Of a DNA stretch of 46,200 nt, positions 4,029-40,446 are shown in pieces. Made by a program: the position numbers and the translations under genes. Positions within the stretch are counted from its first letter, which is position 1, and every line of letters starts with the position of its first letter. Under the pieces are notes generated by a model that saw nothing but the letters and a program-made list of their open reading frames with translations, did no database searches and was not told the origin of the DNA. This DNA comes from a virus, in IMG/VR virus record IMGVR_UViG_3300020215_000013, positions 1 to 46,200 of that record, one strand, 5' to 3'.

Positions 4029-4741
4029 TAGAAAACGACGAAGTGACCATTAGTAACTTGTCTCCGCCTATAATTGGAAGCCATCGAGACATTTACAATA
4101 AGCTCATCTCAATGCTCCCGAATTGGTTCGGAACCGACCACATTAATCTTGATACTATTCTTGAATCTTTTATTACAACCGGAACATTTCATTATGAGCA
4201 GTTGATTTATGTTGCCTTGCAAATGCGTTTACAAACTGCCACTGATATTAATATTGATGCAATAGCTGCTGATTATTTAGGTAATTTTCCAAGAAGAGCA
4301 GGGGAGAATGATGCTACTTATAAAAAAAGAATTCTCGCCACTCTATTACAAGAAAAAGCGACTAGATTTGGCATGAGCAATGCATTATACTTGCTGACAG
4401 GTTATCGTCCGATTCTATTTGAACCCTGGTATCCTCCAGATTGCGGCGGCTATAATGTAGCAAGTAGCATGGGGTATAGCATTATGGGTCTTTACGGATC
4501 TGATTCGTATGCTTATCAAGGATTTGTTGATGTTTTTGTATCACAATTCCAAGGCTTGGCGAATTATAGTGGATATAATGATTTCCTTTTTGGTTACAGT
4601 ACAGCGGGCGGAAAATCTCGTGGCTGGTATGGCGGAGAATCTTTGATAACTGAAATTATTTCAGATCAAGATATCTATGACACCATTAATCTAACCAAGG
4701 TTGAAGGAACTATTGTTTGGGTTAGAATTATCCGACAATAA
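4025..4741 (+). CDS. Tail protein I-like baseplate protein (Mu gp48-like)
   Basis: 238 residues, placed between gpJ and the fibre as gpI in P2 and gp48 in Mu. The N-terminal region (YNKLISMLPNWFG) resembles the L..LLP.yy start of gpI/gp48 proteins, and NFPRRAGENDATYKKRI matches their P.R.gE.D..yR.Ri pattern. The C-terminal half is rich in Tyr and Gly and probably contacts the fibre. It starts within the gpJ stop. It is followed by an 88-94 nt leader with RNA structure before the tail-fibre start. Confidence 0.8.
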   Translation: MIENDEVTISNLSPPIIGSHRDIYNKLISMLPNWFGTDHINLDTILESFITTGTFHYEQLIYVALQMRLQTATDINIDAIAADYLGNFPRRAGENDATYKKRILATLLQEKATRFGMSNALYLLTGYRPILFEPWYPPDCGGYNVASSMGYSIMGLYGSDSYAYQGFVDVFVSQFQGLANYSGYNDFLFGYSTAGGKSRGWYGGESLITEIISDQDIYDTINLTKVEGTIVWVRIIRQ

Positions 4742-4757
4742 TAGATTTACTTTCTAA

Positions 4758-4835
4758 TGAGACGAGACGCTCTTTTAGAATAACTACAGTCTCCGGTACG
4801 CGATGACCGGAAGTTGAAAAACTTTCGGGATGCGT
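4758..4835 (+). promoter_or_regulatory. Structured 5' leader of the tail-fibre gene (copy A of a repeated RNA element)
   Basis: Three successive hairpins fill the gap before the fibre gene. Hairpin 1 pairs GAGAC 4764-4768 with GTCTC 4789-4793. Hairpin 2 pairs CCGGT 4793-4797 with ACCGG 4806-4810 around loop ACGCGATG. Hairpin 3 pairs AAGTT 4811-4815 with AACTT 4820-4824 around a GAAA tetraloop. GGGA and then ATG 4836 follow. A second copy precedes the capsid gene (36687-36777): hairpin 1 is identical, hairpins 2 and 3 differ by compensating changes, and the 8-nt loop differs at one position only. I recognise no known riboswitch family; the function is unknown. Confidence 0.72.
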
Positions 4836-6419
4836 ATGTCTGATTATCACAAGAAATTATATGAGATTAGCCTTCAAAAGAAGCAGGAATCTACCCAAAA
4901 ATTTAAATCATTTAAAGAACGGCTGAAAAGCTCATTAAAATCTACCTTAGATAATTTGATTTTATGTGGGCGTGTAACTGTATATACCAATCAGGTTCCT
5001 TTCGAAACTGATATTCTCAGATCTAATCTTTACATAATGACCGCTGTCAGTCGCCTAGCTAAAACAATTTTAGCGACTGGGAATAGTAATGCAACTTTGG
5101 CATGCGATTTATCATGCACTCCAGTTAGTCCGGGAGGGCTATCAGTTGATGTTGGCCCAGGTGCAATTTATAGCTATGAGAATCTTGATAGCACTGCTTA
5201 TGGTGTTTTACCCGCTGATACCAATCCAGATCACAAATTATTTAAACAGGGAATTAATTTTGACCCGGTGAATTTCCCAACGCCTGCCCCAGTCGTAAAT
5301 GGTGATTCTATTATTTATCTGATTCAGGCGTCTTTTTCAACTACTGACGTTAATGATGTCAGTCGCCCTTATTTTAATTCCACTGACCCTAATGATCCTA
5401 TCTTTAATAATAATTTTGATACTAGGGAAGACTCAGTAGCCCTTTCTTTAAAAAGTGGTACATCTGCTCCATCTCCAACCCCCCCAACACCAGATACGGG
5501 GAAGATCCCCCTTTATTATGTGACTGTGACCTACGGACAAACAGTTATTATTTCAGGGAATATTACCATTGCCACAAACGCGCCTTTTATTACTGAAGGA
5601 TTGATGAATAAAATTAGCGCAGTAGGCGCAGTGACTCCAACCCAATTACAAAACAGTACGCCTATTTATGCTCCCAATATTGGTACAGCGAATGCTTTGG
5701 TCGCAAATGTAACTCCAGCGTATGGTACCTACCAAACCGGTACTAGAATTTTTGTATTAGTTCCTAGTGCTAATACTGGACCATCAACTTTACAAATTAA
5801 TTCTAATCCAGCTTTAGCCATTCAAGTCATGACCCAAATGGGTCTCAAAGCTTTAGCAGGCGGAGAGATGTTAGGAGGTGGAGTATATGAATTTTTTCAT
5901 AATGGCACTGTGTTTCAACTCCTTAACCCTAATGGCGCTGAAGGCGGAACAATACAAATTGGCCGGATCACAATGCAATCAGGTCTAAACCCAGATCCGG
6001 GATATTTAACTTTAACTTCAACCGCAGTCAGTAGATCAACCTATTCTCGTTTATATAGTTATCTTGGTGACGAATGGGGATCTGGAGATGGTAGTACTAC
6101 TTTCAACGTTCCTCCGCCGGGTCGAGTCCCAGTGGGTGCGGGGTGGGGTGGCTATCCCGGTTTAGGCGATACCGTAGCTGAGACCGGTGGAGAAGCGCAA
6201 CACACCCTAACTGTGGGCGAGCTTCCTACTCATAATCACCCTCTGAATTCATCACCTAGCGCAATTTCTTATGTAACACAAGGAACTGGCGGTGACACTA
6301 TTACCGTTGGGGGGGGCGCAGTTGGGTTCGCCGCGGTAGGTGTTGGTAATACTGGTAGTAATACTCCTCACAATAATATTCAACCTTCTATGGTCCTTTT
6401 ATTTCAAATTAAATACTGA
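4836..6419 (+). CDS. Tail fibre with C-terminal tail-collar domain
   Basis: 527 residues from ATG 4836, chosen over ATG 4830 because GGGA then sits about 5 nt upstream and the spacing from the leader hairpin matches the capsid copy. The N-terminal about 50 residues are charged and probably helical. The middle has IQINSNPALAI-type fibre repeats. The last about 150 residues form a Phage Tail Collar domain: RSTYSRLYSYLGDEWGSG, then TFNVPPPGRVPVG, LPTHNHPLN and NIQPSMVLLF near the end. This is the gpH-like host-recognition or short-tail-fibre protein. It lies directly after gpI, as in P2-like phages. Confidence 0.87.
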   Translation: MSDYHKKLYEISLQKKQESTQKFKSFKERLKSSLKSTLDNLILCGRVTVYTNQVPFETDILRSNLYIMTAVSRLAKTILATGNSNATLACDLSCTPVSPGGLSVDVGPGAIYSYENLDSTAYGVLPADTNPDHKLFKQGINFDPVNFPTPAPVVNGDSIIYLIQASFSTTDVNDVSRPYFNSTDPNDPIFNNNFDTREDSVALSLKSGTSAPSPTPPTPDTGKIPLYYVTVTYGQTVIISGNITIATNAPFITEGLMNKISAVGAVTPTQLQNSTPIYAPNIGTANALVANVTPAYGTYQTGTRIFVLVPSANTGPSTLQINSNPALAIQVMTQMGLKALAGGEMLGGGVYEFFHNGTVFQLLNPNGAEGGTIQIGRITMQSGLNPDPGYLTLTSTAVSRSTYSRLYSYLGDEWGSGDGSTTFNVPPPGRVPVGAGWGGYPGLGDTVAETGGEAQHTLTVGELPTHNHPLNSSPSAISYVTQGTGGDTITVGGGAVGFAAVGVGNTGSNTPHNNIQPSMVLLFQIKY

Positions 6420-13700: not shown

Positions 13701-13774
13701 TAGCGGAGGCCAGATTTGAACTGGCGATCTGTTGATTATGAGCCAACCGGGATGAACCGCTTCCCTACTCCGCA
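13701..13774 (-). tRNA. tRNA with CAU anticodon, initiator-like (fMet type)
   Basis: Read on the minus strand, a 74-nt cloverleaf forms. The acceptor is UGCGGAG with CUCCGCU (6 pairs and a U1-U72 mismatch). The D stem is GGGA/UCCC. The anticodon arm is GUUGG-CUCAUAA-UCAAC with anticodon CAU, the variable loop is AGAUC, the T arm is GCCAG-UUCAAAU-CUGGC, and the discriminator is A. CCA is not encoded. The unpaired 1-72 position and purine 11-pyrimidine 24 pair are hallmarks of bacterial initiator tRNA, and overall it resembles fMet tRNA. It lacks the full run of three G-C pairs in the anticodon stem. Confidence 0.85.
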
Positions 13775-14130: not shown

Positions 14131-14571
14131 TTAGAATGGAATATCATCATCGTAGCTCCCGTGCCCTGCCGCTTCCATTTGCTGCTCTACTTCTCCTTCA
14201 TTTGGAGGTACCCATGGATTCCCCTCCCCTTTTTTACTATCCAACATTTGCATTTCTTTAGCGATTATTTCGGTGGTGAAACGATCCGCTTTCGTTTCTT
14301 TATCTTGCCACTTGCGGGTTTGGATTCTACCCTCGACGTAGATTTTAGAACCTTTCTTCAGATATTCTTTTACTATTTCTGCTAATCGATTAAAAAACAC
14401 AATCCGATGCCATTCGGTCTTTTCTTTATGTTCGCTGGTGGTTTTGTCTTTCCAAGTTTGGGATGTGGCCATACTGATATGAGCTATGCAGATTCCGCCT
14501 TTTGTGTATTCTACTTTTGGGTCAGTGCCAAGATTTCCGATCAGAATAACTTTATTTACCCCTCGTGACAT
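14131..14571 (-). CDS. ssb: Single-stranded DNA-binding protein
   Basis: 146 residues from ATG 14571, chosen because GAGGG precedes it; the longer frame reaching 14613 lacks such a site. The OB fold starts [17 protein letters not shown] and continues with the typical [15 protein letters not shown] and [18 protein letters not shown]. The acidic C-terminal tip DDDIPF is the peptide used by bacterial SSB to recruit partner proteins. It would protect ssDNA in phage replication and recombination. Its leader lies next to the iteron region. Confidence 0.96.
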
Positions 14572-14652
14572 ATTTCCCTCTTTGCTTAAGTTCCGGGCCT
14601 TAGGCAAACCCAAAAACCCGGCGAGATATTTTCATGAGGCTTAAGTGTAAGT

Positions 14653-14839: not shown

Positions 14840-15844
14840 ATGGATATCGGGCAAATTAGACTGTCTCATCTTTCAATGATGACCGGCATGATCCGAAGGA
14901 CATTAACGGCCAGGGCACATGCTTTATTCGATAAAAATGATTTGAATCGGTCTTCAGGTAATCAAATTATTTTAAATTCTGATCAAGTGTATCAACTTCT
15001 TGAAGATCAATTCATATACAAAAAAGGCAAGATAATTTGCATGGCAATGAGAAAAGGTGGTGTTGGAAAAACATTTATTTCCTTCTTTTTAACGCATTTA
15101 ATAAGCTCTCTAGGATTAAAGTTCTGCATAATCGATCTTGATCAAGAAAGCCTTTTGACACAGAAGATATTAAAGATACAAGATTATTTGCCGATTAATA
15201 CTCCTGTTTTTGTTGATCTTGTGAGTAAGAATATTCATCCCGAATTAGGGAGAAAAGTTAATATCGAAGATATCATTATGCCCGTCTCTAAAAACTTAAG
15301 TATAATTCCCTCAACTGTAAAAAATACATTGCTTGCTCAAACTATTGCATTTCAAGGTATCAAGCATTATGAAAATTGGTTAAATGAGCTTTGTATTGAT
15401 TATTTAAGATCGCACTATGATGTTATTTTAATAGATACACCCGCTGGGGATTCTGTACTTCTCTCTTCTTTTTATCTTTGTTTAGATGAAAGAGATAGCA
15501 TTTTAATCCCGGCCTTTGCTGATCAAGCTGCCACATTTTCAATTTCAAATACGCTTAATGATATCTATGCAATTAGAAAAGAATTTAAAAAACCCTTAGA
15601 TTTAGATATTAACGTTGTTATTAATAAAAAGCCTACTAATCGATTGTCCGAGGAAAATTTCGAGTCTGAAATACAACGATTATATAATGAATTTATATGG
15701 AGAGAATATATACCAGACAATGCTCAATTAACTACAATTTACAACCAACCTAGTCTATTAGATTCTTTAAAAGACCCAAAACAATTCTACGATAATATAA
15801 GTTTTTTATTAAAAAAATTTAAAATCTTAAAAGGCGATGAATAA
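14840..15844 (+). CDS. parA: ParA-type partition ATPase
   Basis: 334 residues from ATG 14840 with GGGAA upstream; the TTG at 14828 is rejected. A deviant Walker A, RKGGVGKT, is at 71-78, Walker A' (CIIDLDQES) near 96-103, and Walker B (VILIDTPAG) near 194-202. The about 65 residues before Walker A are long enough for the N-terminal DNA-binding region of P1-type (type Ia) ParA, which represses its own operon. It segregates plasmid copies together with a ParB-like partner and a centromere. Its stop overlaps the next gene (TAATG). Its presence in a phage genome indicates stable plasmid maintenance. Confidence 0.93.
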   Translation: MDIGQIRLSHLSMMTGMIRRTLTARAHALFDKNDLNRSSGNQIILNSDQVYQLLEDQFIYKKGKIICMAMRKGGVGKTFISFFLTHLISSLGLKFCIIDLDQESLLTQKILKIQDYLPINTPVFVDLVSKNIHPELGRKVNIEDIIMPVSKNLSIIPSTVKNTLLAQTIAFQGIKHYENWLNELCIDYLRSHYDVILIDTPAGDSVLLSSFYLCLDERDSILIPAFADQAATFSISNTLNDIYAIRKEFKKPLDLDINVVINKKPTNRLSEENFESEIQRLYNEFIWREYIPDNAQLTTIYNQPSLLDSLKDPKQFYDNISFLLKKFKILKGDE

Positions 15845-16995
15845 TGCCAAAATATCTTAAAGATATTAAAAGATCACAATCGGAAATCCCAAAGCGCCCT
15901 TTCCGAATAAGAGAGGATTTTGTAGCACCTTGGCAAGCCTCTATCCACACCTCTGTTGAAGAACAAGATATAAAACGAGATATATCACAAGATAGCGATT
16001 CAGGTAATATCGAGATACAAACGAGATATATACGAGATAGAAACACGATAGCATCGCGGCATATACAAGATAGCAAACCGGATAATAACCCGGTAGCAAC
16101 GAGACAACTAACGAGAGAGCATCAAGCTATAAAACAAGATATTCATCAAGATATAGAACGAGATATAAAATTATTGCGTCATCATGTAAAAGGTCTCATC
16201 GGTCATCAGAAAAACCTATTTGAATATGTGCTAGATTTCGCCAACTTAAATGATGGATTTAATAGCGGTTTTATTTCCTCGCATGAGATGGCCTTATCTA
16301 TCGGATGCACTTATGCTGTTGTTAAAATAACGCTTTTCAACATGATTAAAAAAGGCCTCTTAATACGGCACAAGGGGAAAGGATGTAGGGGAGGGTATAT
16401 TATTCTTGAAATTCCGAAAGAAATTAAAGGGCTTTACTGTGAATTTCATCAAGATATTAAGCGAGATATAAAACGAGATATATCACAAGATAAGACCGAA
16501 AATCATTATAGTAGTAGTAATAAAAATATTACTATAGGGAAGGGATGGGATGAAATTGATTGTAATCCGCTTGAAGAAATACACTTCGACAAAGGATGTC
16601 TCAAACAACTGAAAGAATGCGGTGCTCACCCTGAAATAGTTCAAGCCTCAATCAACCATTTCGCGTTTGAGCGCAATAAAGTTACTGATACTAAGGAGCG
16701 GAACGAAAAGTACCATTTAAAGCTCATTATGGGCGTTTTGAGAAAGGGTAATGCATGGACAAAGCCACAAGGCTATTTGTCTCCTCAGGAGAAAATTTTG
16801 CAGGATTTTCGGGATGAAAAGAAAGCGGAGGAGGGGAGAGTAAGACAAATGATGGATCAATTGTTTGAAGAGCAATTTAATGAATGGTATTCAAAAATAT
16901 CTCTAGACATTCGCAACAAGAGAACGGTTGGAGACCTTCGGTTAGAATTTCGTAAAACTGATTGGTCTGAAATTTATAAACGAATAAAAAAATAA
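15844..16995 (+). CDS. Winged-helix replication/partition protein with iterons inside its gene
   Basis: 383 residues. The N-terminal 110 residues contain repeated D-I-[KER]-R-D-I-type peptides (41-50, 55-76, 96-108), and the same peptide recurs at 203-216. Residues about 115-190 look like a winged helix (LFEYVLDFANLN, then SHEMALSIGCTYAVVKITLF and a GGYIILEI wing). The C-terminal part has LIMGVLRKGNAWTKPQGY, seen in similar form in the Rep-like gene at 26908. The DNA coding for the repeats is a phased iteron array, which recalls lambda O, whose gene contains the origin. Adjacent parA makes ParB the alternative. Replication initiator is my preferred reading. Confidence 0.65.
   Translation: MPKYLKDIKRSQSEIPKRPFRIREDFVAPWQASIHTSVEEQDIKRDISQDSDSGNIEIQTRYIRDRNTIASRHIQDSKPDNNPVATRQLTREHQAIKQDIHQDIERDIKLLRHHVKGLIGHQKNLFEYVLDFANLNDGFNSGFISSHEMALSIGCTYAVVKITLFNMIKKGLLIRHKGKGCRGGYIILEIPKEIKGLYCEFHQDIKRDIKRDISQDKTENHYSSSNKNITIGKGWDEIDCNPLEEIHFDKGCLKQLKECGAHPEIVQASINHFAFERNKVTDTKERNEKYHLKLIMGVLRKGNAWTKPQGYLSPQEKILQDFRDEKKAEEGRVRQMMDQLFEEQFNEWYSKISLDIRNKRTVGDLRLEFRKTDWSEIYKRIKK
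15964..16494 (+). repeat. In-gene iterons: 14 copies of C[A/G]AGATA with 11-12 bp phasing
   Basis: Copies start at 15964, 15976, 15988; 16011, 16022, 16033; 16066; 16135, 16147, 16159; and 16450, 16462, 16474, 16486. Within clusters the period is 11 or 12 bp, close to one helical turn, and the core is CGAGATATA or CAAGATATA. The inverse core is repeated in the intergenic region upstream of parA. The repeats encode low-complexity K/R/D/I/Q peptides, suggesting the DNA, not the peptide, is under selection. Candidate origin or centromere. Confidence 0.82.
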
Positions 16996-20308: not shown

Positions 20309-20515
20309 TTAATTACTTCTTAAGCTTTTAAAATCAGTTTTCGGTTTTGAGAATCGACCTTTAAAATTAGTCTTTTCTCTGTTCTTATCAGCCCAGCACT
20401 TGAGGCAGTCTTGTTTTTCTAATCCCATGATAACTTGATTTGCGTCTCGATAGGCGTCGAAAACATCATGCTCCTGCGAATGTCCACAGTTGTGATAAAT
20501 AGTGTATTTAGCCAT
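20309..20515 (-). CDS. Small zinc-knuckle protein, 68 residues
   Basis: The start is preceded by AAGGAG, which lies within the end of csrA. HNCGH at about 8-12 and CLKCW at about 37-41 can form one zinc site. The C-terminal 25 residues are basic ([12 protein letters not shown]), suggesting nucleic-acid contact. No family is recognised. Confidence 0.6.
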
Positions 20516-20711
20516 TTTCTACTCCTTCTGAATTAGGTTCATTTGCATAGTATTCGATACGCGCTTGAATCTCCTCTCGATTAACTGAAATATGTCTTGG
20601 TGCTTCGATTCCTAAGCGAACTTGATTGCCTCGAATGCCAAGAACAGTGATCACAATTTCATTATTATTTATAAATAATCGCTCATTAGTAGAGCGCGTA
20701 AGAATTAACAT
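20508..20711 (-). CDS. csrA: CsrA/RsmA-family post-transcriptional regulator
   Basis: 67 residues, close to the usual 60-65. It begins [14 protein letters not shown], continues [18 protein letters not shown] and ends the core with ISVNREEI. The RNA-binding residues of E. coli CsrA (L4, R6, V42, R44) are all present here (L4, R6, V43, R45, with one inserted residue). CsrA dimers bind GGA in mRNA loops near ribosome-binding sites and control translation and stability. Here it sits in the early operon, coupled to zinc-ribbon genes, and could reprogram host CsrA targets or regulate phage mRNAs. Confidence 0.95.
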
Positions 20712-21411: not shown

Positions 21412-22302
21412 TTATTTGATTAAAAACCGCCTGCTTCCAGGAACAATTTTCTGAAACTGGCTATGAAGATCAGGGTGCTTGTCTTTGAATGTATCCACGT
21501 CGAATTTAGTACTCTCTTTCGAATTCTTCCAAGTGCAAAGGACTTTATCTTCGAAAGTTAAACCTTCCTTGTCTTTTAAATCGATCATAATTTTACCCTT
21601 TATATCTTTCTCCTGTGATTCAAGATGTTTTATCTGCTCTTGGATTATTTTCAGTCTTTCGATATCTTGAGATTGTTCATAAGTGGCATCTAAAAAATCC
21701 CCCGATATATGCTTTGTATAAAATGTTTTAACATCCATAATGTTTTGAGGAGGCGGGGGAATGTCTTTTTTAATATAGAGATCCCAAAACTTATTTGCTT
21801 CTTCAAGCATGTAGCTGTAGAAATCAGGATCAAAGTTACAGTTATGTCTGTATAATTGCTTTTCTATAATATTCAAAACTACTATTTCTCCAAATTCCAA
21901 ATTACTTAATCCCAAATGTAATTGAAGTTTTGAATAATAGAACATGAATTTAATATCAGATGAATCCAGATATTTTTTACTTGATCCTAATTCTAACGCC
22001 CCAGAAACAACTCTGCCATTCTTGTCAAGATAAATAGAATGAGGAGGAGAGCAAATAAATTCATACTGATTACTATCTATATAGTCTGATATTCTTGTTT
22101 CTAGATTCGTTTCTTCTTTCCAGCAATTAAGAACGATATTTTTTATTATTTTGTCGAACTTTAAATTTATATCATTATTATTACTTTCAGATTTTCCAGT
22201 TTTCTCCATCCATACTTGAAAGCTAGATTTATATTTATTATAACCCAAGATCGATGCTATATCTGATCCAAACAAAAATAAAGGTTCCGGTCTAGCTAGC
22301 AT
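21412..22302 (-). CDS. YqaJ/lambda Exo-like recombinase nuclease with altered active site
   Basis: 296 residues from ATG 22302, which has AAGGAG upstream. The start FLFGSDIASILGYNKYKSSF is the typical G.SdiaailG.npy.s entry of YqaJ proteins. The usual TPDG..., LEIK active site is here CSPPHS (84-89) and ALELGSS (102-108), so the catalytic Asp and Lys appear to be missing. The helix YSKLQLHLGL corresponds to the Q.Q..L motif. A coiled coil (IKHLESQEKDIKGK) follows. It overlaps the Sak4-like ATPase gene. It may be inactive, or use other residues. Confidence 0.78.
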   Translation of the reverse strand: MLARPEPLFLFGSDIASILGYNKYKSSFQVWMEKTGKSESNNNDINLKFDKIIKNIVLNCWKEETNLETRISDYIDSNQYEFICSPPHSIYLDKNGRVVSGALELGSSKKYLDSSDIKFMFYYSKLQLHLGLSNLEFGEIVVLNIIEKQLYRHNCNFDPDFYSYMLEEANKFWDLYIKKDIPPPPQNIMDVKTFYTKHISGDFLDATYEQSQDIERLKIIQEQIKHLESQEKDIKGKIMIDLKDKEGLTFEDKVLCTWKNSKESTKFDVDTFKDKHPDLHSQFQKIVPGSRRFLIK

Positions 22303-23206
22303 TAGCCGCTCCTTGCGTTTCTTTAGCGATTTTTGCTTTAACAGCATCTTCTAATGAATTAATGAATTTTTGAATTTCTTCAGATGGCAAAGACTCTTTT
22401 GAATAAAATCCTTTCCCTTCCAGCTTTCTATTAATCTGTTCTTCGGTATAATTTAATGTTATGCACAAGCTATGAAAAATTTTAAGTTGTTCTTCTGTCG
22501 CAAGAGAGATTTCTTCGCCTTCATTTAGCCAGTTTGATAGCTCATTACCCAATTCAATCCCAGGCTTATCTATTGATCTATCAATAAATTTACCAGTTCT
22601 ATCTTTAATAAATGTTGCAGTATTGTCACTATCCATCATGATAGCTAATGTAAACTCATATTCTATGTTTCCTTTTTGTTCCGGAGTTAATCCAACCTTT
22701 CTTGGCCTTTGCTTTTTAAACCCATTTTTTTCATACTCTTCTAGAACATATTCAGTTTTAGCGCGAGTGCAGGCAATAATATGACAAGGGCAGCTCATAA
22801 TTGCTTCTATAAATCTTTTATAACTGGGTGTTCCAATCCTTCCCCATTCGCTGAATGTATTTCCAGATTTAGATTTTGCTGCTGCCTGCTCGACGTCTTC
22901 TTTTATCTGATCCCATACTGGAGTAATTGTATCAAGAATAATTATTTCATATCCGAGTTTAGCTGCTTGATTAATGGCTGAAATATATGTATCAACTGTA
23001 AAATCAGGCAGCTCTAAAACGTCAAAATCAACGAGATTAGAATAAAGGCTTGCGCTACCGCGTTCAGTGTCAATAACAGCAATCTTTTTACCCATGCCAG
23101 ATGCTATCAATAATGAAGAATACGTTTTACCTGAACCTGATGTTCCAGAGATTAACATTCTTAATTTAGATTTTTTCCGAGTAGCTTTTTTAAATTCAAA
23201 TTTCAT
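22292..23206 (-). CDS. Sak4-like RecA-fold ATPase (phage annealing/recombination protein)
   Basis: 304 residues, SD AAGGAG. Walker A is GTSGSGKT at 21-28, then AVIDTERGSAS (43-53), and Walker B IIILDTITPVW at 88-98. This is the AAA_24 RecA-core type common in phages and related to Sak4 annealing proteins. It is expected to act with SSB and a YqaJ-type exonuclease in homologous recombination. Both are in this genome, and the nuclease gene is directly coupled downstream. Confidence 0.9.
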   Translation of the reverse strand: MKFEFKKATRKKSKLRMLISGTSGSGKTYSSLLIASGMGKKIAVIDTERGSASLYSNLVDFDVLELPDFTVDTYISAINQAAKLGYEIIILDTITPVWDQIKEDVEQAAAKSKSGNTFSEWGRIGTPSYKRFIEAIMSCPCHIIACTRAKTEYVLEEYEKNGFKKQRPRKVGLTPEQKGNIEYEFTLAIMMDSDNTATFIKDRTGKFIDRSIDKPGIELGNELSNWLNEGEEISLATEEQLKIFHSLCITLNYTEEQINRKLEGKGFYSKESLPSEEIQKFINSLEDAVKAKIAKETQGAANAS

Positions 23207-28130: not shown

Positions 28131-28498
28131 TGCGATTAACTAAAAAACAAGCAAGAAATCTTAAAATCTTATCGAAAATGCCGATTCCGAAATATCATAA
28201 TAATAAAGTCGAATATGGTGGGTTTTTGTATGATAGCAAATTTGAATGTAGAATTTATCAATATTTTGAATGTTTGAAAGCAATAGGAGAAGTGAACAGG
28301 ATTGTTAGACAAGTTCCTTTTCATTTAGGTCCAAAATCAAATCTAATTGCAAATTTTGAAGTCAAGTTTGCAGGTGAGGACGATGTTCGGTACTTCAAAA
28401 TAGAAGACATGGAAGACGATAATTTCTTAAAAAAAACTAAACTGGTTGAGAAACTTTATGGGGTTAAAATAGAAATCATTAAACAAGAGGAATTTTAA
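28130..28498 (+). CDS. DUF1064-like nuclease-fold protein, possibly inactive
   Basis: 122 residues. KYHNNKVEYGGFLYDSKFE (21-39) is the DUF1064 entry ([KR]yhnkk.e.dG..FDSk.E). The later family elements, Y.aDF and [DE].KG, are here LIANFEVKF and YFKIEDME. The putative catalytic Asp is replaced by Asn, and the Lys is shifted. DUF1064 proteins are phage proteins thought to be related to PD-(D/E)XK nucleases. Coupled with membrane-protein and VRR-NUC genes by overlapping stop/start. Confidence 0.75.
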   Translation: MRLTKKQARNLKILSKMPIPKYHNNKVEYGGFLYDSKFECRIYQYFECLKAIGEVNRIVRQVPFHLGPKSNLIANFEVKFAGEDDVRYFKIEDMEDDNFLKKTKLVEKLYGVKIEIIKQEEF

Positions 28499-28848
28499 TG
28501 AAATCTGAATTCACTGAAAGTGTAAATTTTATTGTCTGGTCAAAATTTAACAAAATTGCTCGAGAATATTTATTTGCAATTCCGAACGGCGGTTCTCGCC
28601 ATGCTGCTGAAGCAAATAATTTAAAAAAGCAGGGTGTTAGGAAAGGCGTCAGTGATTACTTTTTAGCATATCCGGCTAAAGGAAAGCATGGACTATGGAT
28701 CGAGCTAAAAAAAGACAAAAAGTGTAAGGCAACTAAAGAGCAAGCCGACTGGTTGAGAAAAATGCATGAATTGGGATATGAAGCAAAACTGGCATTTGGG
28801 GCAGCAGAAGCTATGCAAGCGGTGGAAGACTATTTGAGAATTGGATAA
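28498..28848 (+). CDS. VRR-NUC domain nuclease
   Basis: 116 residues, one domain. The family line IPNGGSRHAAEANNLKKQGV, then RKGVSDYFLAYP and GLWIELK is clear. The nuclease residues are D53, E69 and K71, followed by EQADWLRKMHELGYEAKLAF. Stand-alone VRR-NUC proteins of phages are predicted Holliday-junction or flap nucleases. Here the active site looks intact. It ends the rightward early-middle operon before a strong terminator. Confidence 0.92.
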   Translation: MKSEFTESVNFIVWSKFNKIAREYLFAIPNGGSRHAAEANNLKKQGVRKGVSDYFLAYPAKGKHGLWIELKKDKKCKATKEQADWLRKMHELGYEAKLAFGAAEAMQAVEDYLRIG

Positions 28849-36667: not shown

Positions 36668-36686
36668 TATTCGTCAAACTTTTTTT

Positions 36687-36777
36687 TGAAACGAGACGTT
36701 CAGAAAAAGTAATTTAAATACACAGTCTCTATGGCACGAGATGGCCAAGAGTAAACAAAATACTTTTGGAGCATCAA
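36687..36777 (+). promoter_or_regulatory. Structured 5' leader of the major capsid gene (copy B of the repeated RNA element)
   Basis: Hairpin 1 pairs GAGAC 36693-36697 with GTCTC 36725-36729. Hairpin 2 pairs TGGC 36732-36735 with GCCA 36744-36747 around loop ACGAGATG. Hairpin 3 pairs AAGAGTA 36747-36753 with TACTTTT 36761-36767, and GGAG follows immediately as ribosome-binding site for ATG 36778. Compared with copy A (4758-4835), the flank [A/G]ACGAGACG[T/C]TC and loop are conserved, while stems 2 and 3 differ with pairing kept. It lies within the late operon, 20 bp after the scaffold stop. Confidence 0.75.
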
Positions 36778-38109
36778 ATGCCTATTGCAAATTTTCCGGC
36801 AAACCTAGCGGCCGCTATTCAGTTAGGATATTTAGAAAAACGTTTTCAAGACGGATTAAAAGCCAAATTAGGTTATCGCAGCCTAGCAACTAAAGAAACA
36901 TTCCGAAATAATGTTGGTGAAACTCTGACTAAAACTCGTGGCGGATTATTGCCCGCTAACATTACCCCGCTTGACCCAACTACTAATACCAATCTAGATA
37001 ATGGCTTATCTCCACAATATTGGACTGTTGAACAATATAGTTTAGCGATTAATGAATATGCATTTACGCTAGATTTGAATCTAGTTACGCAAAAGGTAGG
37101 AATTGCTGATCAATTTCTAAAGAATGCGCAAAAATTAGGTGAAAACGCGTTTAGAAGTATCGATCTTATCAATAGAAATGCACTTTTTAATGCTTATATG
37201 GGCGGTAATACGCGAACCACGGCTACTCTAGGTGCTCCCGGTGTGACTATTGCTGTTGATGATATTCGAGGTTTTCAGTATGCAATTCCCACCTCCGGAG
37301 CCAATTCTGGGAAACCAAATATCCCAGTTAGTCCTTCTAATACAATGCCGGTGCAAGTTGGATCAAATGTTTATACATTAACAGGTGCAACTGCTGACGT
37401 TTCTAATGTTTCTACCGCTTTTCTGGGTATATCTGGAACTCTTACTTTCTCTGCAAATGTTACTGTATTAGACAGCACTTCAGGAAATGCTGTGGTAAGC
37501 GCCTATGCGCCATTGATAATTCGGCCCAATGGTCGATTGACTACAAATTTGGTGCAAGCAACTGACTATTTAACATTGCAATCTTGTCGTGATGCAGTTC
37601 AAGTCCTTCAAAATAACAATGTTCCTGGTCCTTACAAATTAACCTGTGCGCCAGCCTCATTTAATCAACTTTATAGAGATCCTGAGTTTCAAATCTTGTT
37701 TCGTGGTACTGAATTTAATTCGACTGAGTACAAAAACTTTGTACCTTCTGAATCGGTTTTGGGCTTCGATATTATTCGTACGAATATGGCACCTCAGCAA
37801 AATTTAAATGGCCATGCTATTCAAAGACCTATTCTGACTGGAGAAGAGTGCTTAATTGAAGCCATGGCCGAAGCTACTGATGAAATTCTTGACAATAAAT
37901 ATGGTAATGAATTGCATGATATTTCAATTGTCGAGGATATTGCGATGGTTACTCGTAGTCCATTGGATAGATTGTCCCAGATTATCGCTCAATCATGGTT
38001 TTTCATTGGTGGATGGACAGCGCCTACAGATCAGACTGTTAACAGCGCGCTCATTCCAACTTCAAATTCTGCTTATTACAAACGAGCAGTAGTTTTAGAG
38101 ACAGCATAA
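36778..38109 (+). CDS. Major capsid protein
   Basis: 443 residues from ATG 36778, with GGAG 6 nt upstream; a TTG at 36766 is rejected. It follows the scaffold gene. The protein has a long N-terminal helical arm (QLGYLEKRFQDGLKAKLGYR), an inserted Ser/Thr/Gly-rich beta region (about 170-245), and a C-terminal DRLSQIIAQSWFFIGGWTAP. The fold is presumably HK97-like. It is the most abundant phage product, which fits the special leader. Confidence 0.9.
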   Translation: MPIANFPANLAAAIQLGYLEKRFQDGLKAKLGYRSLATKETFRNNVGETLTKTRGGLLPANITPLDPTTNTNLDNGLSPQYWTVEQYSLAINEYAFTLDLNLVTQKVGIADQFLKNAQKLGENAFRSIDLINRNALFNAYMGGNTRTTATLGAPGVTIAVDDIRGFQYAIPTSGANSGKPNIPVSPSNTMPVQVGSNVYTLTGATADVSNVSTAFLGISGTLTFSANVTVLDSTSGNAVVSAYAPLIIRPNGRLTTNLVQATDYLTLQSCRDAVQVLQNNNVPGPYKLTCAPASFNQLYRDPEFQILFRGTEFNSTEYKNFVPSESVLGFDIIRTNMAPQQNLNGHAIQRPILTGEECLIEAMAEATDEILDNKYGNELHDISIVEDIAMVTRSPLDRLSQIIAQSWFFIGGWTAPTDQTVNSALIPTSNSAYYKRAVVLETA

Positions 38110-40251: not shown

Positions 40252-40446
40252 GTGTCTAAAAAACAAAAACAGGCTGAAGAAATTTCAGAAAAAAAAGAAC
40301 ATAAAATCGAATCACCTTATTTTCTAGTAGTTAAATCTCCTTTCAGGAATTATCAAAAAGGTGATCAGATTTCTGATCCTCAAGAAGTGATCAATGTATT
40401 GGCTTGTCATGAAGGCCATATGGTCGTTAAATCATTAAAGAATTAA
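40252..40446 (+). CDS. Small protein before the sheath gene, 64 residues
   Basis: GTG start at 40252, with AGGAG upstream. It has a basic N-terminus and then YFLVVKSPFRNYQKGDQISD, QEVINVLACHEG and a closing VVKSL. Small beta proteins of this kind occur just before the sheath in Mu-like phages; function is unknown. Confidence 0.6.
   Translation: MSKKQKQAEEISEKKEHKIESPYFLVVKSPFRNYQKGDQISDPQEVINVLACHEGHMVVKSLKN

Follow-up and report, generated by a model that had tools for sequence, protein, structure and literature searches.

Leader RNAs ahead of the tail-fibre and capsid genes

What do the gaps in front of two virion genes of one phage share at the RNA level, and what could such RNAs do for the genes behind them? 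The 46,200-nt stretch of DNA analysed here (the window) is a phage record that closes as a circle through a 127-bp terminal repeat and encodes a contractile tail (sheath phrog_23, baseplate J). A first-pass annotation of the letters had proposed that two gaps in it carry the same three-hairpin RNA architecture, one before a tail-fibre gene and one before the major capsid gene. Both gaps lie where they had been placed, ~14.1 kb apart on the circle, and the identity of the genes that follow them is borne out by domain matches:

4742-4835, + strand: gap A, directly 5' of the collar-domain tail-fibre gene
4830..6419, + strand: tail-fibre/collar gene downstream of leader A (PF07484, E 2e-9; likely start ATG 4836)
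36668-36777, + strand: gap B, directly 5' of the major capsid gene
36778..38109, + strand: major capsid protein gene downstream of leader B (phrog_1357, E 1e-23)

Folding is more stable in both gaps than in shuffled controls (ViennaRNA, z = -2.1 to -2.8). No sigma-70 promoter (-35/-10 pair) was found in leader B, the only promoter match at leader A is a weak one (9/12) upstream of the gap at 4701-4728, and an intrinsic terminator or attenuator (a GC-rich hairpin followed by a U tract) is absent from both leaders. Elsewhere, the window holds a single tRNA gene (13701-13774, - strand; Rfam tRNA, 58 bits), imperfect AGATATAAAACGAGATAT repeats (15966-16492) within an ORF at 15844-16995, and a recombination/replication module composed of an SSB-like protein (14131-14613, - strand), a YqaJ recombinase domain (21415-22347, - strand), an AAA_24 ATPase (22295-23206, - strand) and a VRR-NUC-like nuclease (28498-28848, + strand), the SSB and the nuclease being named by eye.

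Each gap contains a tandem pair of hairpins (sensor hairpins H1 and H2) that present the loop ACGNGAYG on unrelated stems:

4752..4780, + strand: sensor hairpin H1 of leader A, octaloop ACGAGACG at 4762-4769; -6.0 kcal/mol with the loop open; covariation (alignment A5)
4787..4793, + strand: possible anti-loop CAGTCTC for H1 of leader A (GAGAC/GUCUC; the 3' half of the stem 1 first proposed)
4792..4811, + strand: sensor hairpin H2 of leader A, UCCGGU[ACGCGAUG]ACCGGA; -9.5 kcal/mol; covariation
36678..36710, + strand: sensor hairpin H1 of leader B, octaloop ACGAGACG at 36691-36698; -6.7 kcal/mol; covariation
36723..36729, + strand: possible anti-loop CAGTCTC for H1 of leader B
36727..36751, + strand: sensor hairpin H2 of leader B, UGGC[ACGAGAUG]GCCA with outer pairs CUC/GAG; -9.1 kcal/mol; covariation

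The sequence ACGNGAYG occurs at seven sites on the + strand of the window, and a hairpin of -6 kcal/mol or better forms at four of these, exactly two per gap; this count is model-free, being made by hairpin energy, and the cut-off is reached by 3.2% of random sites. The arms of H1 around the octaloop are TTCTAATGAG and CTCTTTTAGAA in leader A and ACTTTTTTTTGAA and TTCAGAAAAAGT in leader B, and once the 5' arms are included the GAGAC/GTCTC stem of the first-pass annotation turns out to be a misreading, as GAGAC sits inside the hairpin loop. The GTCTC, which is complementary to this loop, may act as an anti-loop of hairpin 1 in the three leaders considered here, because the closest relative (L003, see below) shows ATCGC there against the loop GCGAT. 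The second proposed stem, with the loop ACG[C/A]GATG, is present in both gaps on differing stem sequences.

The third stem likewise ends at the Shine-Dalgarno (SD) sequence with different stem sequences in the two gaps, but it is longer than had been described and takes in the 3' strand of stem 2 (CCGGAAGTT/AACTTTCGG in leader A and CCAAGAGTA/TACTTTTGG in leader B), so that stems 2 and 3 compete:

4807..4828, + strand: competing hairpin P3 of leader A, CCGGAAGUU-GAAA-AACUUUCGG, reaching into the SD; MFE fold; -15.7 kcal/mol
36745..36769, + strand: competing hairpin P3 of leader B, CCAAGAGUA-AACAAAA-UACUUUUGG; -16.0 kcal/mol
36768-36771, + strand: SD of leader B, GGAG

The 3' strand of H2 (CCGGAAGUU in leader A, CCAAGAGUA in leader B and CCAAAGGUUU in L003) has two possible partners, the 5' strand of the same hairpin and a stretch terminating in the SD (AACUUUCGG, UACUUUUGG and AAACUUUUGG, respectively), and the two folds are therefore mutually exclusive. 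Part of the loop pairs past the SD as well, UACGC 4797-4801 with GCGUA 4832-4836 in leader A, GAUG 36740-36743 with CAUC 36772-36775 in leader B and GUGAU with AUUAC in L003. When partners are exchanged among these three leaders, the native pairings beat all five swaps and are the best of the 6 permutations. The architecture is common to both gaps, as first proposed, but it comprises two sensors, the second of which is in competition with an SD hairpin, rather than three independent hairpins.

The octaloop hairpins covary

The capsid protein of the closest relative, L003, is 59% identical, and its gene is preceded by a tandem octaloop pair (AUCUUAAUUG[ACGCGAUG]CAGUUAAGAU and UUUGGU[ACGUGAUG]GCCAAA); no octaloop hairpins were found before the L003 tail-fibre gene. 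The six octaloop stems of these three leaders from two phages covary (score 0.95 versus 0.317 ± 0.095 in shuffled controls), with 87.5% of cells paired compared to 60% after shuffling and lower values in slid controls, a result that supports the selection on RNA structure suspected in the first-pass annotation.

The octaloop class comprises these two phages and three leaders. A covariance model of the octaloop hairpins (R2) recovers its own training set, four hairpins in the window and two in L003, and found no further member near a capsid gene, while a search of 369 gammaproteobacterial genomes returned single weak matches and no tandem pair. A third octaloop in G001, the genome of L003, at position 14356 lies within a gene on a weak hairpin and was taken as chance. 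In three IMG/VR capsid scans the nearest relative was L003, except for the fragment L002, which is identical at the capsid gene, and a DNA pattern scan for H1 and its anti-loop gave chance matches only, outside L002.

Other relatives carry different sensor hairpins at the same place

A capsid search based on alignment gave 80 loci; the collection contains over 565 relatives. Most of the other relatives harbour at the same capsid-leader position a motif of the form P1-A[U/C]CG-P2(4 bp)-NNGRC-P2'-A-P1' (motif M), which in 27 ungapped leaders is 88% paired versus 67% when shuffled (score 0.603 versus 0.205 ± 0.026), with both sides changed in 9/9 pairs. Across 2.1 Mb of phage DNA, a covariance model of motif M (R1) matched at E<=1 only coding-strand capsid leaders and one other, weak place; in the 369 gammaproteobacterial genomes it gave two chance matches, both inside housekeeping genes. 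A third class, hairpins with a C(UGAU)G loop that often stand in tandem at -44 and -67, was detected in further relatives including Komagataeibacter phage phiKX1 and also covaries (0.719 versus 0.214 ± 0.075). Over 128 distinct leaders the most frequent loop apart from TTTTT is NNGRC, and N-G-R-Y on the 3' side of the loop is common to all three sensor classes. The same logic precedes the capsid gene throughout the phage group, and its sensor hairpins are of three kinds or more.

Motif M and C(UGAU)G leaders resemble those of the window in the gene they precede, their place, the N-G-R-Y loop, the frequent tandem arrangement and the alternative pairing of the SD, whereas they differ in their stems and internal loop. 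Leader B is a capsid leader on the coding strand within the 45-105 nt before the ATG that motif M occupies, and the sensor 3' strand is able to pair into the SD region in window and motif M leaders alike, yet R1 finds no match to the window leaders (its best hits, of 9 bits, are in unrelated places). We therefore describe octaloop and motif M leaders as functionally parallel and do not claim a single homologous family, since R1 misses the window copies. Covarying homologues of the element that had been noted in the window do exist, the element itself in the closest relative and functionally parallel motifs at capsid genes of ~50% identity.

Several other features were noted at these loci. Tandem motif M copies with entirely different P1 sequences precede the capsid gene in L031, L086, L113 and L123. 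One group of relatives (capsid leaders L126-L165) has intrinsic terminators directly before the capsid-gene SD, and terminators before a capsid or tail-fibre SD are odd for late genes that need transcription. In two relatives, matches to the int-alpA RNA (RF02996) lie downstream of the capsid module (L139, 16727-16795; L131, 14029-14097). A small gene before the tail sheath of the window (40252-40446, + strand, containing SPFRNYQKGDQISDP) is more often recognisable in relatives with motif M, probably for phylogenetic reasons, and a co-occurrence search for a dedicated regulator near the capsid gene gave phylogenetic signal only. By eye, a kink-turn in motif M was rejected, since the base pair that follows G.A is Watson-Crick. 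Hammerhead and other ribozymes were also rejected, as neither a core sequence nor an Rfam match was present.

The tail-fibre copy is particular to the window phage. Six relatives in which a tail-fibre gene follows directly (G006, G007, G009, G012, G013 and L056) have an ordinary intrinsic terminator in the gap, and motif M precedes the tail fibre in none of the whole genomes searched; as the relatives' tail-fibre gaps lack the element, the copy at 4752-4836 belongs to this phage. Here the switch of the capsid gene may have spread to another structural gene.

Two exclusive folds are maintained

In motif M leaders the loop together with P2' and P1' can pair with the SD-proximal stretch. When pairing partners were exchanged between phages, the native combinations were more stable than the permuted ones (-15.5 versus -11.2 ± 0.46, p<5e-5), the P1' part was significant in every GC class, the P1 control behaved as expected, and the 5' strand of P1, the negative control, showed no match (p=0.66). 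The signal in the UGAU class is weak (72 of 720 permutations). In M leaders two helices which cannot coexist are both maintained, a hallmark of bistable switches. The sensor hairpins covary, the competing helix of M leaders is selected, and native pairings surpass swapped ones in the window and L003.

The SD-pairing state is the MFE fold in most leaders. Forcing the sensor to form in silico left the mean probability of an unpaired SD at 0.28, with or without the sensor (Wilcoxon p=0.68); the idea that sensor formation frees the SD is not supported by these folds, and no direction of switching is predicted. In the mechanism that we propose, H1 and H2 would form during transcription, exposing the N-G-R-Y core on the 3' side of their loops, followed by a short hairpin, with the SD outside P3. 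In the alternative state, the 3' strand of H2 and part of its loop would leave their own 5' strand and pair into and past the SD (P3), taking the first G residues of the SD into the helix and drawing the start-codon bases into the outer helix. An RNA-binding factor, probably a protein, would read the sensor loops and set the balance between the states, and with it the output of capsid and, in this phage, tail-fibre protein. On these grounds we infer translational control and the involvement of a factor, and consider it probable that both gaps are cis-acting bistable translational leaders, the second copy, at the tail fibre, occurring in the window phage only.

Candidate effectors and rival explanations

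Among the functions suggested in the first-pass annotation, the likeliest is still a protein-binding operator, while nothing specific supports a translational enhancer or a processing site. One candidate reader of the octaloop is encoded in the window itself:

20508..20711, - strand: CsrA/RsmA-family RNA-binding protein (PF02599, 68 bits; 66-67 aa)

This protein is 53% identical to the CsrA encoded in the L003 genome, and csrA was found in 2/43 phage records, precisely the two octaloop phages. It is possible, if doubtful, that phage CsrA is the effector in both, a dimer bridging H1 and H2 through the variant loop ACG-N-GAYG (not A-N-GGA-N) and thereby switching capsid and tail-fibre translation. 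Besides the confinement of csrA to these phages, such a role would be consistent with the octaloop ACGNGAUG being the RsmE/hcnA loop ACGGAU(G) plus one inserted base (PMC4005645), with loop-start spacings of 36, 45 and 46 nt that fall inside the 10-63 nt bridging range of the CsrA dimer (PMC7652899), and with the octaloop hairpins ranking top among all CsrA-like loops scanned in both genomes; CsrA can moreover activate by opening SD-sequestering hairpins, for example at ymdA (PMC7652899). The window leaders share with CsrA/RsmE operators (hcnA, glgC, ymdA) the tandem hairpins near the SD, an ACG.GAU close to ACGGAU and a csrA gene in the phage, but the essential GGA (ANGGAN) is missing from 6/6 octaloops of the window and L003, which read ACGNGAYG, and the octaloop is a candidate site only. 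The co-occurrence of csrA and octaloop also amounts to one event because the two phages are sister lineages, and the phages of other sensor classes that were searched have parallel leaders and no csrA. Capsid leaders of 4/4 other csrA-bearing phages checked contained no such hairpins, and the notion that csrA phages generally have these leaders is not supported by these four; a csrA-like gene is present in 85 INPHARED records, bacterial contigs among them. A wider proposal, that capsid leaders are modular, with a conserved SD-competing platform and interchangeable sensors, and that the sensor of the window and L003 is read by a phage CsrA of altered specificity (ACG-N-GA), seems to us unlikely.

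The tie of the element to the capsid gene in relatives, where R1 has one weak match elsewhere in 2.1 Mb, the loop core NGRY common to the sensor classes and the fixed 4-bp spacing from internal loop to hairpin loop in motif M, which is typical of protein operators, would suit autoregulation in which a virion protein, either the capsid protein or its scaffold, binds the sensor hairpins as coat proteins of RNA phages do. We hold this explanation only tentatively, as HK97-fold capsid proteins are not known to bind RNA and the tail-fibre copy would require cross-regulation. The selection of two mutually exclusive folds could be read as an RNA-only device, in which co-transcriptional folding order or a response to temperature or ions sets the amount and timing of capsid synthesis without any factor, and lambda cIII is a precedent for a bistable mRNA in a phage; we judge this unlikely, given that the invariant loop bases (A9, C11, G12, G19, C21 and A26 in motif M; ACG-GA-G in the octaloop) are dispensable for pairing and point to recognition. 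That the 5' hairpins merely stabilise the mRNA of a highly expressed late gene or are RNase processing sites, with incidental SD complementarity, would account for the presence of hairpins in the leader but is very unlikely in view of the selected competing helix and the conserved loop sequences.

Relation to known systems

The bistable leader that we favour has counterparts in other phages. The lambda cIII mRNA start region adopts two exclusive folds, one of which hides the start site, and the window leaders share the principle of two exclusive folds at one mRNA start region, but cIII is an early regulatory gene, has no conserved sensor loops and is unrelated in sequence. The MS2-type operator is a small hairpin 5' of the start codon that displays an invariant loop on variable stems. 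In this arrangement it resembles the octaloop hairpins, as does the T4/RB69 gp43 translational operator, which has the same design (PMC3014915), yet both serve repression, lack a selected competing helix and have other loops. In translational activation by the Mu com/mom system, a leader hairpin bound by the Com protein lies beside a start-hiding translation inhibition structure, and binding remodels the RNA (PMC6483171). Going by predicted folds and by analogy only, the window leaders likewise have a hairpin adjoining a start-hiding structure; the Mu target is mom and not a capsid gene, the Mu leader has no tandem sensors, and PMC6483171 describes no family-wide covarying leader. The leader element probably works like the Mu com/mom and lambda cIII switches, while by test it belongs to neither.

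Rfam 15 gave no match at the gathering threshold or in a permissive scan at E<=5, and a comparable capsid-leader element was not found in the searchable literature (subscription papers fell outside this scope). We conclude that the capsid-gene leader element described here is new, covaries and is bistable, and that the original observation holds and reaches further than first stated.

To our knowledge, capsid dosage control in tailed DNA phages has seldom been examined at the RNA level. A covarying capsid-leader fold with exclusive states, present in many related phages and not in Rfam, would add a new class to the cis-regulatory RNAs of viruses. Phage-encoded CsrA is reported in ~1% of phages and has no known role (PMC7366521); the leaders offer these proteins a concrete, testable target, and if the CsrA-read modular switch were true, virion genes would be the targets that have long been sought for them.
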